From contig NZ_CP044543.1 in the NCBI RefSeq assembly GCF_008932115.1, positions 248,001-312,000 on the forward strand: a stretch of 64,000 nucleotides of DNA. The letters run 5' to 3'. Position numbers and translations under genes: made by a program. The stretch comes from Bradyrhizobium betae (GTDB lineage Bacteria > Pseudomonadota > Alphaproteobacteria > Rhizobiales > Xanthobacteraceae). Below are positions 58,092 to 64,000 of the stretch, in pieces; within the stretch, counting starts at the first letter, position 1, and every line of letters starts with the position of its first letter. The notes below the pieces were generated by a model, which was given only the letters and a program-made list of their open reading frames with translations, ran no database searches and was not told where the DNA came from.

Positions 58092-58532
58092 CTATCCCGC
58101 GCCGACTTCGGCAAACCCGCGCATGAGGTTCGGTGTCGACCAGGTCGCTACGCCGGTCCCCGCAAAGTCGCGGTCCGTCGTCCAGACGTCGGCTTCGACA
58201 CTCCAGGCCAGCGCCAGCACGTGGGCATCGCGCACCGAACCGTTGCGGCTGAGCACGGCGTCGCGAAGCACCTGCTCGCATCGGACAAACATCGGCTCCA
58301 GTGCGGCGCCGGGCACGATCGTGAGGACCGCCGCGAGATCGTCGAGAACGCCGAGCAGCTCGGGGCGCTTCAATCCGAGCTCGATACGCCGACGCGCCTC
58401 CTCGACGACACGATCGGTCGTGACCAGGATCGCATGCGCGGCGGCCACCAGGACCGCGCCGGAGCTTCGACCGCGAACCGCGGCAATCAGGATGGCCGCG
58501 TCGACGACGATCGTCGTCGACGGCGGTCTCAC
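58092..58532 (-). CDS. vapC: PIN-domain toxin (VapC-like)
   Basis: A 146-residue PIN-domain RNase. Candidate acidic active-site residues are D11 (IVVDAAIL), E44/E45 (VVEEARRR), D102 (SVRDAHVL) and D120 or D122 (WTTDRDF), spaced as in PIN nucleases. Its ATG overlaps the stop of the upstream antitoxin by four bases, the usual toxin-antitoxin coupling. Confidence 0.88.
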   Translation of the reverse strand: MRPPSTTIVVDAAILIAAVRGRSSGAVLVAAAHAILVTTDRVVEEARRRIELGLKRPELLGVLDDLAAVLTIVPGAALEPMFVRCEQVLRDAVLSRNGSVRDAHVLALAWSVEADVWTTDRDFAGTGVATWSTPNLMRGFAEVGAG

Positions 58533-58837
58533 CGCTTCGCTTTACGAGATTTGGCGGGCTTGCCCGTCAGGGCGTTCACAGCCGCGGCCGACCAATCGAC
58601 CGGATCGACATCGCCGAATGAAGCCAGCGCCGCGTCCTCCGCCCGCACATCGCGGCCCTTGGACAGCGCTTCAGCTCGCCGCAAGACGGCGGCAAGACGA
58701 GCCGGATCAGCCGCCTTGAGAGGAATGAGCAGGCCCACCGTCCGCTCGCCCGATTTCACAGGCGTCGGCCCCGGCAGCGCACCGATCGCCTCGCCGGAAA
58801 TCTTCTGGAGATCGCGGATGCTGATGTGGGTCATCAA
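58529..58837 (-). CDS. antitoxin of Phd/YefM-like type, paired with the PIN toxin
   Basis: A 102-residue protein opening HISIRDLQKISGEAIGALPGPTPVKSGERTVGLLIPL, which matches the Phd/YefM DNA-binding fold pattern. A longer, partly disordered C-terminal region would neutralise the toxin. The inverted repeat at 58839-58860 directly before its start is the likely self-regulatory operator. Confidence 0.82.
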   Translation of the reverse strand: MMTHISIRDLQKISGEAIGALPGPTPVKSGERTVGLLIPLKAADPARLAAVLRRAEALSKGRDVRAEDAALASFGDVDPVDWSAAAVNALTGKPAKSRKAKR

Positions 58838-59512: not shown

Positions 59513-60421
59513 TTACTTAAGCGGCCGTTTCTTGGCGGCCACCTGAACTCTCTTTGCCCGACCGTATAATGACTCCTTGTAATTGTTGGTTGCCGCCAAC
59601 TGCGCTGCATCTGCGGCCAAATCTTTCATCACGAGGAGTGCGCGCTCAAGATAATGTTTATCGATTTTGACTTTTTGGCCAAGCTGCAGCGGGCTCGAAG
59701 GGACCTCTAAGAGGTATTTGCGATCGACGCGCGCCTCATTGTGTATGATGATATTTCGTCTTGCCGTCATCTCTTGGAGTGCCTCTAGTAGCGGCACTTT
59801 GTTATTCTTGAAATGCTGCCCAAACCCAAGTGCCGCCTTATCCTTCGCGAATAAATCTATTGGATTGCCATAGAAAATCCCGCGTACTTTTTCTTCAATC
59901 AGCTTATGGAGTATCTCATAGCGGTCTTTGCTTTCCAGAATCACTTCGATTAGCTTCTGCTGGCGGCCGCTTGTCTCTACCTCGCTGTGTTGCGAAAGCC
60001 CTTTGAGCTTTCTAGGGAAGTCTAGATAGACCTTAAAAACCAAGGTCGACATAAACTGCTCGAATGAACTTATTGCATCGATGAACGCGTGCCGCCCGGA
60101 TGTGTGCTCCCTAATTCGGCTGAGGACACCGTAGACGTCGCTAGCACTTATCGCCTGCTTCCTCGGCTTACTCACAAGGCGAGGAACAACGAGACAATCT
60201 AGGGTCTTAGCTTTCACCTGCCGATGCACCTCCAGCAGGTAAAAATCTATGGCGATAAAGTCTTCCCAAATTTCGTTCAGCTCGGTGTTTAAGCTTGAGA
60301 ACAGCACGCCGATGTTGCGCGCACCGAGCTTCTGTCTTTCGGCGTCCGTTAGTTCACTTTGAAGCTTTCCCGACGTAGCGCTTTTTGTTTTTCTGGCAGG
60401 TGCATTCGAGTCGGCAGACAT
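59513..60421 (-). CDS. HEPN-motif protein in the guaA-linked low-GC block
   Basis: A 302-residue soluble, mostly helical protein. The C-terminal third contains EMTARRNIIIHNEARVDRKY, an R-N-x3-H motif (R227, H232 numbered from the upstream TTG) typical of HEPN RNase domains found in toxin-antitoxin and abortive-infection systems. The N-terminal region includes charged Lys/Arg-rich segments. I chose ATG 60421 (residue 6 of the longer frame), which has GAAGGA just upstream. It begins only 34 bases after the truncated guaA copy and has lower GC than the chromosome. Function is inferred from the motif only. Confidence 0.7.
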   Translation of the reverse strand: MSADSNAPARKTKSATSGKLQSELTDAERQKLGARNIGVLFSSLNTELNEIWEDFIAIDFYLLEVHRQVKAKTLDCLVVPRLVSKPRKQAISASDVYGVLSRIREHTSGRHAFIDAISSFEQFMSTLVFKVYLDFPRKLKGLSQHSEVETSGRQQKLIEVILESKDRYEILHKLIEEKVRGIFYGNPIDLFAKDKAALGFGQHFKNNKVPLLEALQEMTARRNIIIHNEARVDRKYLLEVPSSPLQLGQKVKIDKHYLERALLVMKDLAADAAQLAATNNYKESLYGRAKRVQVAAKKRPLK

Positions 60422-60453
60422 CACATTTTCCTTCAAATGCCTTTTTCAATGCC

Positions 60454-60487
60454 CCTACTCCCACTCAATCGTCCCAGGCGGCTTGCT
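60454..60487. repeat. 34-base direct repeat at guaA 3' end (att-like), outer copy
   Basis: Begins CCTACTCCCACTCAATCGTC and is identical over 34 bases to 62498-62531. It covers the last codons and stop of guaA in both copies. The two copies bracket about 2.0 kb. Confidence 0.8.
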
Positions 60488-60820
60488 GGTCACGTCGTAC
60501 GCCACCCGGTTCACGCCCTTCACCTCGTTGATGATGCGCGTGGCGGTCTCGCCGAGAAACTTCATGTCGAACTGGCAGAAGTCCGCAGTCTCACCGCCGG
60601 TGGATGCGACGGCGCGCAGGCCCACCACGAAGTCATAGGTGCGGCCGTCGCCCATGACGCCGACCGTCTTGACCGGGAGCAGGACGGCGAAGGCCTGCCA
60701 GATGTCGTCGTAGAGGCCGTGCTTCCTGATCTGGTCGTTGTAGAGGGCATCGGCGTCGCAGGATGCCGAGCTTGTCAGGCAGGCGCCTGGGCCTGGTTGA
60801 GGCTGGGTAGGGCATAGCAA
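60455..60820 (-). pseudogene. truncated guaA 3' fragment
   Basis: The final roughly 310-330 bases of a guaA copy (to about 60780), reading [20 protein letters not shown] to the C-terminal [13 protein letters not shown]. It stays open but has no catalytic N-terminal part. By eye roughly nine in ten bases match the resident guaA at 62499-62815, so this is a diverged copy rather than a recent duplication. Upstream of about 60780 the similarity fades into unrelated sequence, marking a recombination junction. Confidence 0.85.
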
Positions 60821-60899: not shown

Positions 60900-61103
60900 T
60901 CAGAATCGGTTTCGGAGTGCCTTTTGCGTCACGTCGTCACTGCTTCTCTGAGCTTTGTTAAGGAGACGCTCGAATTCAAGCCGACTAGTATCGCGCTTAG
61001 GCGCGATTACAATGCGTCCCTTTTGAGCAGCTTCAATCTTCCGATTGGTAACACCACTCTTCTTCAAGAGATCGTCGTATTCTTTTCTATTGCTCTGGAC
61101 CAT
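60900..61103 (-). CDS. small basic protein overlapping the Ntn-hydrolase gene
   Basis: A 67-residue frame (MVQSNRKEYDDLLKKSGVTN to QKALRNRF) rich in Lys and Arg, predicted helical, without signal peptide. Its ATG lies inside the last codons of the Ntn-hydrolase gene, overlapping by 17 bases in another frame, so the two are almost certainly co-translated. No family is recognised. A regulatory or adaptor subunit of the hydrolase is the simplest guess. Confidence 0.6.
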   Translation of the reverse strand: MVQSNRKEYDDLLKKSGVTNRKIEAAQKGRIVIAPKRDTSRLEFERLLNKAQRSSDDVTQKALRNRF

Positions 61104-62385
61104 TCGCAGTCTCCACGCTTCGCCGATGGTCGGCTTGCTGCCTCAAAAAGAACCGCGAATTCAATTTAGGATCGAAATAGAGCTTCCTCTTAGCCCAAAC
61201 AAACCCTTCATGTTTGGTAATTATTGCTACATCTATTGGTCCGCCGACCGATTCGCTAGGACTGGTTACTTTTTCTTTCAATGATTCCAGCATCACGAGG
61301 GTTTCGGCCAGTTCAGCAAGTTCATCAGTGGGGAGCGATCCAATCACCCGACGCAATGGCCTGCCGTGCCTCTCGAAAACATCGGCGGTCCACTTATCGG
61401 CATGTGTACTCACAGCATCATCCACAAGATCAGCTAAGTTCTGCGGATTTGCACCCAACTTTCCTGCGAAGTCCCGCAAGACGTCCCGGAGATGCGAACG
61501 GACCAAGTTGAACACGTCAGGGCCAAATCCCATAGTGAACGTATCTGCCATGGCCGTCGTAGCGAAGGCTTTGAAGAAGCCGGAGTCTCGCTGAGTTATA
61601 GCGTGATCTCCTTTTTCCGCCGCACAAAGCCGCCCCCCAACGAAGCCCATGCAAGAGAATTCCACATAGGAAGGAAAGAAGTCGTGCGTGCCATAGCCAG
61701 CAATCACAATACCCGTCTGCGACAGAAATATTTCCGGTCTTCGGAAGAGGGCTTCAAGTCCAAGTTCGACAAGACTGATTTTATCTAGCGGAGCGCTGTT
61801 CGAAAATAGATTTAGGTTCGTCTCGGCTTCGACTTCCAATCGAGCAAGATGCTTTGCCTTAGCCGCATCGAAATCCTCCTGCGTTAGAGGCGGCACAAGC
61901 GGGAAAGTTCTGGTGATGACAAGGTAGTTTTCGAGAGCGACTCTCTTTGCTTCGATGACAGCGCCTTCGTCAGGTGCTGCAGACGTCACGGTATCATCTT
62001 CATTGATCATATTCAGGAAGCGAATCATAATCTGATCGACGTTTTCGATGAAAAGTTCATCGAGATACGCCGCAGGAAATAATCCGCGATGTTGTTCAAT
62101 GAAGCTCAAGAACTGCAGCCCGTATTCTCGAACTGACTGAAAAGACTTAGACGCAAGCTCCGACCTGAACGTCTTGACAATGATCTCCCAGGGAATCCTC
62201 TGAAGATCAGCAGAGTCGTAGATCATAATCCCGACTGGTTCGGAATTAGACAGTTGGAAGATCTTGTTCGACCCCTTGAAGTATCGCTCTTCTTTCTTTC
62301 CATTCTCCCAGCGCGAAACTGTTGCCGCACTGTCAGCGGCCAAGACCAGCGAGTGCCGGTTCATCACACAAATTTCCGAGGTCAA
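61087..62385 (-). CDS. proteasome-like Ntn-hydrolase in the guaA-flanked cassette
   Basis: A 432-residue protein starting at a TTG with GGAGG six bases upstream. After Met removal the N-terminus is Thr, and the spacing T1 (MTSEICVMNR), D17 (LVLAADSAATV) and T21 matches proteasome beta subunits and HslV. A Lys in SNKIFQLSN (about position 40) could be the K33 equivalent, followed by VGIMIYDSAD, matching the G47/GxxAD region. The roughly 250 residues after this are not proteasomal. The C-terminal segment LPTDELAELAETLVMLESL plus GGPIDVAIITKHEGFVWAKRK defines an uncharacterised bacterial family. It is lower in GC than neighbouring genes. Confidence 0.8.
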   Translation of the reverse strand: MTSEICVMNRHSLVLAADSAATVSRWENGKKEERYFKGSNKIFQLSNSEPVGIMIYDSADLQRIPWEIIVKTFRSELASKSFQSVREYGLQFLSFIEQHRGLFPAAYLDELFIENVDQIMIRFLNMINEDDTVTSAAPDEGAVIEAKRVALENYLVITRTFPLVPPLTQEDFDAAKAKHLARLEVEAETNLNLFSNSAPLDKISLVELGLEALFRRPEIFLSQTGIVIAGYGTHDFFPSYVEFSCMGFVGGRLCAAEKGDHAITQRDSGFFKAFATTAMADTFTMGFGPDVFNLVRSHLRDVLRDFAGKLGANPQNLADLVDDAVSTHADKWTADVFERHGRPLRRVIGSLPTDELAELAETLVMLESLKEKVTSPSESVGGPIDVAIITKHEGFVWAKRKLYFDPKLNSRFFLRQQADHRRSVETANGPEQ

Positions 62386-62497
62386 CTTCAGCCTCCGAGG
62401 ACAGTCGGCAATCTAAGCTCATCAAATAAGAGCAGAGCCAACCTCTCTCGTCTAGGTTGAATAAACACATCGGTATTCGACGTTAGGAGAGTGGCTC

Positions 62498-62531
62498 CCT
62501 ACTCCCACTCAATCGTCCCAGGCGGCTTGCT
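62498..62531. repeat. 34-base direct repeat at guaA 3' end (att-like), inner copy
   Basis: Identical over 34 bases to 60454-60487. It covers the 3' end of the resident guaA. Integrases of the guaA-specific class insert here in other bacteria. Confidence 0.8.
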
Positions 62532-64000
62532 CGTCACGTCGTACACCACCCGGTTCACGCCCTTCACCTCGTTGATGATGCGCGTCGCGGTCTCGCCCAG
62601 GAACTTCATGTCGAACTGGTAGAAGTCCGCGGTCATGCCGTCGGTGGAGGTAACTGCACGGAGGCCCACGACGAAGTCGTAGGTGCGGCCGTCGCCCATG
62701 ACGCCGACCGTCTTCACCGGGAGCAGCACGGCGAAGGCTTGCCAGATGTCGTCGTAGAGGCCGTGCTTGCGGATCTGGTCGATGTAGACGGCGTCGGCCT
62801 TGCGCAGGATGTCGAGCTTGTCGCGGGTGATGTCGCCGGGGCAGCGGATGGCGAGGCCGGGGCCCGGGAACGGGTGGCGGCCGACGAAGATTTCGGGGAG
62901 GCCCAGCTCGCGGCCGAGCTTGCGGACTTCGTCCTTGAACAGCTCGCGCAGGGGTTCGACTAGCTTCATGTTCATGCGCTCGGGCAGACCGCCGACATTG
63001 TGGTGCGACTTGATCGTCACCGAGGGGCCGCCGGTGAAGGAGACGCTCTCGATCACGTCGGGATAGAGCGTGCCTTGCGCGAGGAAGTCGGCGCCGCCGA
63101 TCTTCTTGGCCTCGGCCTCGAACACCTCGATGAAGAGGCGGCCGATGGTCTTGCGCTTAACTTCCGGATCGGTGACGCCTTCGAGCTCGCCGAGGAACTG
63201 CTTGGAGGCATCCACGTGCACGAGCGGGATGTTGTAGTGGTGGCGGAACAGGTCCACCACCGTCTTGGCTTCATCAAGACGCAGCATGCCGTGATCGACG
63301 AACACGCAGGTGAGCTGGTCGCCGATGGCTTCGTGGATCAGCACGGCAGCGACCGCGGAATCGACGCCGCCGGAGAGGCCGCAGAGCACTTTGCCCTTGC
63401 CGACCTGGGCTCTAATTTTGGCGATCTCCTCCTCGCGGAAGGCGCGCATGGTCCAGTCGCCGGAGAGGCCGGCGATCTTGCGGACGAAATTGCGGATCAG
63501 CTTGGCGCCGTCGGGCGTGTGCACCACTTCGGGGTGGAACATCAGGCCGTAATACTTGCGCGCCTCGTCCTGGATGATCGCGAACGGCGCGTTCGGCGAG
63601 GTGCCGGCCACCGAGAAGCCCGGCGGCATCTTGGTGATGCGGTCGCCATGGCTCATCCAGACCTGGTTCTTGCCACCGGGCGACCAGACGTCCTCGAACA
63701 GCTTGCTCGGCGCCTTGACCTCGACATCGGCGCGGCCGAATTCGCGGTGATGGCCGCCCTCGACGGTGCCGCCGAGCTGCTCCGCCATGGTCATCTGGCC
63801 GTAGCAGATGCCGAGCACCGGCACGCCGGAGGCGAAGATCAGCTGCGGCGCGCGGGGGAGCCCGCCTCATGCACCGACTCCGGCCCGCCGGAGAGGATCA
63901 CCGCTTTCGGCTTCATCTCCTTGAAGGCCTCTTCGGCCTTGTTGAACGGGACGATCTCGCAATAGACGCCGTCCTCGCGCACGCGACGCGCGATCAGCTG
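62499..64000 (-). pseudogene. guaA: guaA, GMP synthase (glutamine-hydrolysing); frame broken by one base, 5' end off the window
   Basis: GuaA makes GMP from XMP using glutamine. From 62499 to 63824 the frame reads cleanly: the glutaminase nucleophile in [16 protein letters not shown], the [10 protein letters not shown] region, the PP-loop [14 protein letters not shown], and the C-terminal [13 protein letters not shown]. The upstream part ([20 protein letters not shown] to [11 protein letters not shown]) is in a different frame. The switch occurs near 63854-63858, where the minus strand has five Cs and six would restore the usual GSPRAPQLI. Either a real frameshift or a homopolymer sequencing error. 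The start codon lies beyond the window. Confidence 0.9.

Follow-up and report, generated by a model that had tools for sequence, protein, structure and literature searches.

Two overlapping genes beside guaA

We analyzed a stretch of 64,000 nucleotides from the 7.42 Mb genome of Bradyrhizobium betae (contig NZ_CP044543.1, positions 248,001 to 312,000), hereafter the window, and describe within it a pair of overlapping genes on the minus strand. The first gene (61087..62385) encodes a predicted proteasome-like N-terminal nucleophile (Ntn) hydrolase of 432 amino acids, which starts at a TTG codon and has a Met-Thr N-terminus. The second (60900..61103) encodes a basic partner protein of 67 amino acids, which starts at ATG and is predicted to be helical without a compact fold. 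Their reading frames share 17 bases (61087..61103), an overlap that suggests translational coupling of the two genes and that is likewise 17 bases long in a pair from an Enterococcus faecium plasmid.

By eye, each gene is preceded by a ribosome-binding site on the same strand: GGAGG (62392..62396), 6 bases 5′ of the hydrolase TTG, and GGAG (61111..61114), 7 bases 5′ of the small-gene ATG. The TTG start is credible because GGAGG sits 6 bases ahead of it. The list of open reading frames (ORFs) and this ribosome site confirm the anatomy given in a preliminary description of the window: the coordinates, the TTG start, the Thr after Met, and the overlap. The G+C content is 50% for the hydrolase gene and 48% for the small gene, versus 64% for the window.

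The hydrolase has a predicted proteasome-like fold and conserved catalytic residues

The window hydrolase is modeled with a proteasome beta fold, as in the structures of Anbu, HslV, and proteasome beta subunits. Together with the conserved residues, this model supports a proteasome-like Ntn hydrolase with an N-terminal Thr, as first proposed. Once Met is removed, Thr becomes residue 1, with Asp at 17 and Thr at 21, so this part of the predicted spacing stands; the candidate lysine at position 33 does not. The invariant lysine is instead Lys41 of the precursor, located past a longer loop and assigned as the catalytic lysine from sequence and conservation, not from coordinates.

Of 129 loci with a match, 115 were intact, and these yielded 87 representatives at 90% identity. 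Those left out comprised three loci that lack the C-terminus (L005, L032, and L038) and 11 that were non-intact or whose alignment did not start from residue 1. In an alignment of the window hydrolase with these representatives, Thr2, Asp18, Ser19, and Lys41 are each identical in 88/88 sequences, and Thr22 in 87/88. Other fully identical positions include Gly225, Gly230, Gly232, Gly382, Asp385, Trp397, Arg400, Lys401, Phe404, and Asn409. Thus, on the two points that the preliminary description had singled out for checking, the model gives the Ntn proteasome-beta fold, and both Thr2 and Asp18 are fully conserved. Among 20 representatives collected later, Thr2 is present in 19, and one (L259, 207-1469) is alone in having Ser, another possible N-terminal nucleophile, in place of the presumed nucleophile Thr. 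Both sets draw on BLAST alignments starting at residue 1, which favors similar N-termini and could miss deviant ones.

Start codons vary among the 87 representatives (ATG in 69, TTG in 11, GTG in 7), and a Thr codon comes next in all 87. This Met-Thr pattern is what an N-terminal nucleophile bared by Met removal would require. Nothing but the initiator Met precedes Thr in the family; that is, there is no propeptide. Autocatalytic processing is therefore not needed, and the earlier term “self-processing” does not apply.

Searches of solved structures with the single sequence returned matches at chance level, while a profile found proteasome beta with an expect value (E) of 0.35 over 18 residues. 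None of 32 family members match the Pfam family PF00227 (Proteasome) at E up to 10. PF00227 does find one other place in the same genome, which is HslV-like by motif.

A small partner gene recurs across the family

An ORF of 34-85 amino acids starts by the hydrolase stop at 80/83 non-redundant loci, compared with 181/467 control ORFs. In a later set, 17/19 loci have such an ORF. The proposed dedicated partner thus recurs well beyond the window. Ribosome-site-like motifs precede the partner ORFs, and the family analysis indicates that the small genes are under purifying selection. The partner is also annotated as a gene in Providencia, Enterococcus, and Porphyromonas, as well as in two records of streptococcal satellites. 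In two E. coli prophages (L119 and L120), a 49-amino-acid partner ORF lies between the hydrolase gene and the antiterminator Q gene, unannotated in both RefSeq records.

These counts follow from a mechanical choice of partner; inspection by eye suggests that the frame picked at L024 is probably wrong, as might be the case at a few other loci. They leave out four loci without room for a partner (L057, L063, L121, and L122) and the window locus (L001), which is not on the plus strand and was added to the alignment, selection, grouping, insertion, and profile analyses. For the later set, 6/96 loci were dropped; three of the six, on the other strand (L144, L146, and L149), were read by eye, with a small ORF in place at L144 and L149. 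A looser, post hoc rule adds L097, L124, and L147, which stand outside the counts.

Partner proteins are mostly basic and extremely diverse: 84 of them fall into 48 groups with no detectable similarity between groups. No motif common to all groups was found, and shuffled copies gave two decoy matches at the same threshold. AlphaFold2 predicts three helices for the window partner (predicted local distance difference test score 73.7; predicted template modeling score 0.40). It has no match above the Pfam cut-off, and a similarity search returned four matches, including itself. No natural fusion of enzyme and partner was found among loci with long C-termini in an unsystematic survey, the small ORF of L097 being in another frame. 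At L056, a 360-amino-acid frame, membrane-protein-like by eye and without a Pfam match, occupies the place of the partner; the near twin L055 ends at the stop.

A predicted helical insertion is the most variable part of the enzyme

The model places two helical insertions in the hydrolase. The first comprises helices 105-220, between helices 66-98 and strand 224-230, and the second is helix 317-350, between helices 289-310 and 353-374. With helices H1/H2 and H3/H4 assigned by their order in the model, the first insertion follows H1/H2 and the second falls between H3 and H4. From model secondary structure and identity, the first spans residues 99-222, encoded on the minus strand at 61720..62091. 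Both insertions appear to sit close to the helices that mediate packing of proteasome subunits.

Mean pairwise identity over 800 random pairs is 0.44 for the core, 0.11 for the first insertion, and 0.15 for the second. The first insertion, of ~120 residues, is the most variable part of the enzyme and about as variable as the partner. Between close pairs it changes 3.7 times faster than the core (rates from the 18 listed of 20 pairs), and it is constrained where the ratio of nonsynonymous to synonymous substitution rates is measurable. Judged from sequence divergence, a nearly fixed enzyme core seems to carry fast-evolving parts in cis, plus one in trans, the partner.

The pair is carried by mobile elements

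We found pairs in prophages, satellite phages, and plasmids, as well as at guaA in the window, which bears out the proposed mobile setting. The gene was detected in 13 of 50,697 phage records, nine of which are streptococcal phages or satellites, and in 10 of 72,556 plasmid records; matches were also obtained in 152 viral stretches, of which 80 were kept. Partial, distant DNA matches to one relative occur in 9/5426 E. coli genomes, and a near search of E. coli with another relative gave no match. Among genomes of the phylum, 10/398 matched (the B. betae genome included, and some matches being partial). Among relatives, 6/197 matched, again counting B. betae, two of the six over only ~60 residues.

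In some of the records inspected, the gene lies near antiterminator Q, DNA methyltransferase, or lysis genes; in others, it is among structural genes, in satellites at the far end or towards it, or on plasmids. A scan of the 138 of 168 nearest neighbors that are at least 100 amino acids long identified antiterminator Q in 10, HTH_3 in 7, and holin-family matches in 4. Among the 25 listed of 71 Pfam families for these neighbors, there is neither a recurrent defense neighbor nor an AAA+ family.

At five rhizobial loci (L003 and L124-L127), the hydrolase gene is near a multi-ubiquitin gene, with ThiF-type E1 and 6E genes at four and a ClpP-like gene at three. L125-L127 are mutually close relatives, the L127 hydrolase is broken, and L003 is truncated where its stretch ends. 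These ubiquitin-like operons offer a second lead on function. Elsewhere, L036 has a weak ThiF-like match (31%).

A repeat-bounded segment at guaA

The presumed integration target is guaA (GMP synthase), of which the C-terminal 441 amino acids are open in the window (62499..63824, minus strand). The hydrolase frame begins 113 bases past it. Repeated guaA 3′-end sequence flanks the pair: a partial copy on the minus strand at about 60453-60776 aligns with 62499-62822 over 324 bases at 90% identity and forms the other end of the segment. The repeat includes a 35-base run at the guaA end (62497..62531) identical to 60453-60487, presumably an attachment-site-like segment end. No integrase was seen by eye in the ORF list from guaA down to 55 kb; thus, the segment has repeat ends but no visible engine. 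Scans of the segment gave one promoter-like site (0.9 expected) and four terminator-like sites (2.0 expected), none of the latter directly 3′ of the small gene.

Of the 31 genomes searched, B. betae among them, 30 have a guaA match, and four (G012, G014, G015, and G016) have partial copies of the guaA 3′ end at other genome sites. Furthermore, in Bradyrhizobium lablabi a 73% identical pair also comes after guaA; this species has a copy 81% identical to that of the window. These copies and the B. lablabi pair suggest that guaA is probably an integration hot spot in the genus.

Other features surround the segment. Near 63.83-63.87 kb, guaA is in two frames (the 441-amino-acid ORF and an open-ended 53-amino-acid piece), an apparent frameshift that is either real or a sequencing error. 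The ORF at 59513-60436 (307 amino acids, 49% G+C) has an RNxxxH motif by eye. It had been described as a HEPN gene next to the element; neither that assignment nor a part in the system is supported, as the ORF has no Pfam match above the cut-off, HEPN included, and no match in PADLOC, and it lies outside the guaA repeats. Two overlapping small ORFs at 58092-58837 resemble a VapBC-type toxin-antitoxin pair by eye.

A proposed partner-controlled threonine peptidase as mobile cargo

Taken as a whole, the observations are best explained by a two-gene cargo module of mobile elements that encodes a partner-controlled threonine peptidase, a reading to which we give an even chance. The first gene would encode an active threonine amidohydrolase of the proteasome superfamily, made without a propeptide. 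The second would encode a small helical protein, translated in step, that binds and controls the enzyme. In its likeliest form, the partner would be a propeptide or assembly chaperone acting in trans, which keeps the enzyme latent or brings its sole substrate. Several features are what this form would lead one to expect: the enzyme has no propeptide, the genes are adjacent, and the partner is small, diverged, and predicted to have no compact fold. A trigger that removes or satisfies the partner would then allow the enzyme to make a limited, specific cut, and this might protect the host of the element or exclude rival phages. The cargo setting favors such host protection or exclusion, followed by addiction and then by a phage-internal role. 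A defense role for the pair is a plausible inference.

A narrower version is doubtful, and we offer it tentatively: phages and satellites would use an immune or exclusion enzyme derived from the proteasome, with a nearly invariant catalytic core, a hypervariable helical insertion, and a hypervariable partner that serves as trans propeptide or bait, whose loss or capture by an incoming phage frees one specific cut. If so, a proteasome relative would act as a trigger, not a shredder. If the partner gates the enzyme, the pair would in any case be a simple example of a proteasome relative kept latent and then switched on.

Several results weigh against the partner-controlled module or its use in defense. 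In those close pairs for which selection was measured, neither partner nor insertion appears to be under positive selection. Covariation between partner and insertion was considered and rejected, there being almost none beyond core identity: with core identity removed, the partial correlations of their similarities are 0.05 and 0.07, so docking of the partner on the insertion is not supported. No PADLOC family, among the 25 listed of 81, matches more than 3/138 neighbors, so that no clear defense island emerges. L056 is without any small ORF, and none shows at L146 or L148 by rule or by eye. The hhalign comparisons of the family, against 30 HslV sequences and against Anbu (4 of 10 fetched regions passing a motif filter), reached no significance, but the Anbu-HslV control failed too.

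Alternatively, the pair could be an addiction module, with the hydrolase acting as a toxin by cleaving a host protein and the small protein as the antitoxin, so that the pair merely retains the element. Two adjoining genes, one of them small, on plasmids, prophages, and satellites would suit such a module, as would the sporadic distribution and a partner that is small, mostly basic, and diverging. Nevertheless, the hydrolase gene here precedes the small gene, and toxin-antitoxin pairs less often have the toxin first. The window partner, lacking a Pfam match above the cut-off, also has no known DNA-binding antitoxin domain. We consider addiction unlikely.

The hydrolase could instead serve the phage life cycle: it would process a phage protein in lysogeny or late in infection, and the small protein would be its chaperone. 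Copies that adjoin antiterminator Q, holin, or lysis genes point this way. Against this, the gene also occurs on satellites without an annotated structural gene, on plasmids, and at guaA with no phage genes in sight, and where E. coli prophages and a Stenotrophomonas phage were inspected, it is on the opposite strand to neighboring phage genes. We regard a phage-internal role as quite improbable.

Less probable still is a proteasome-derived ligase or modifier that joins the small protein to targets, as in connectase or pupylation. Connectase is a ligase of the proteasome superfamily (PMC8665760), and in the five rhizobial loci the gene has a multi-ubiquitin gene nearby, accompanied in four by E1 and 6E genes. 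However, the hallmark insertion of connectase, as described in that paper, lies between S3 and S4, while the insertions in our model are elsewhere, and no shared motif was found among the partner groups. We can all but dismiss the idea of an enzyme that works alone and whose 3′ flank only happens to contain a chance or decaying small ORF: partners cannot be aligned between groups and some small frame is present at 181/467 control ORFs, but the recurrence at 80/83 and 17/19 loci, the purifying selection, the ribosome-site-like motifs, and the annotated genes in Providencia, Enterococcus, Porphyromonas, and the two satellite records argue otherwise.

Comparison with known families

The enzyme itself is probably not undescribed, contrary to the preliminary description. 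Fuchs, Alva and Lupas (2021; PMC8665760) list twenty-two proteasome-like families, among them PMI-4, a “proteasome homolog with multiple insertions” comprising 501 sequences at 90% identity from Proteobacteria, Firmicutes, Bacteroidetes, other phyla, and phages, with HDY66466.1 as its representative. PMI-4 has insertions after H1/H2 and between H3/H4 and no propeptide. The modeled window hydrolase is similarly proteasome-like, with insertions at the same two places and no propeptide, and thus probably belongs to PMI-4, a match made by description, not by sequence. The difference lies in the recurrent small partner gene, since PMC8665760 reports that gene context gave no hint of function for the families it newly described. 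The phage family phrog_5990 (PHROGs v4) matches residues 1-415 of the window hydrolase (E 9.9e-80); it is of unknown function, and its record says nothing of a partner.

We found no paper describing the hydrolase-partner pair in the open-access literature, a scope that excludes most subscription journals and bioRxiv preprints. Similarly, none of three window proteins (the hydrolase, the partner, and the product of the ORF at 59513-60436) match PADLOC at E up to 1. Within these bounds, the enzyme family is probably one already catalogued, and the partner and the module were not found in print. What is new in the finding is the small overlapping gene. Its recurrence from Alphaproteobacteria to streptococcal satellite phages provides a functional clue for one of the proteasome-like families for which PMC8665760 reports no telling context, and makes function directly testable with two short genes.

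Connectase would be similar in kind, being proteasome-like and devoted to a narrow, specific task, although the S3/S4 insertion reported for it in PMC8665760 is not seen in the window model. Anbu, HslV, and proteasome beta subunits share the fold and the Thr/Asp/Lys residues with the window hydrolase, which is about twice as long. For the small partner, the working analogy is with Ump1/POMP and trans-acting proteasome propeptides, with no sequence relation claimed; a beta5 propeptide in trans occurs in the PDB titles among our structure matches. Ump1/POMP and such propeptides are small, poorly conserved, and flexible, and they govern the activation of proteasome subunits, much as the partner may govern the hydrolase.
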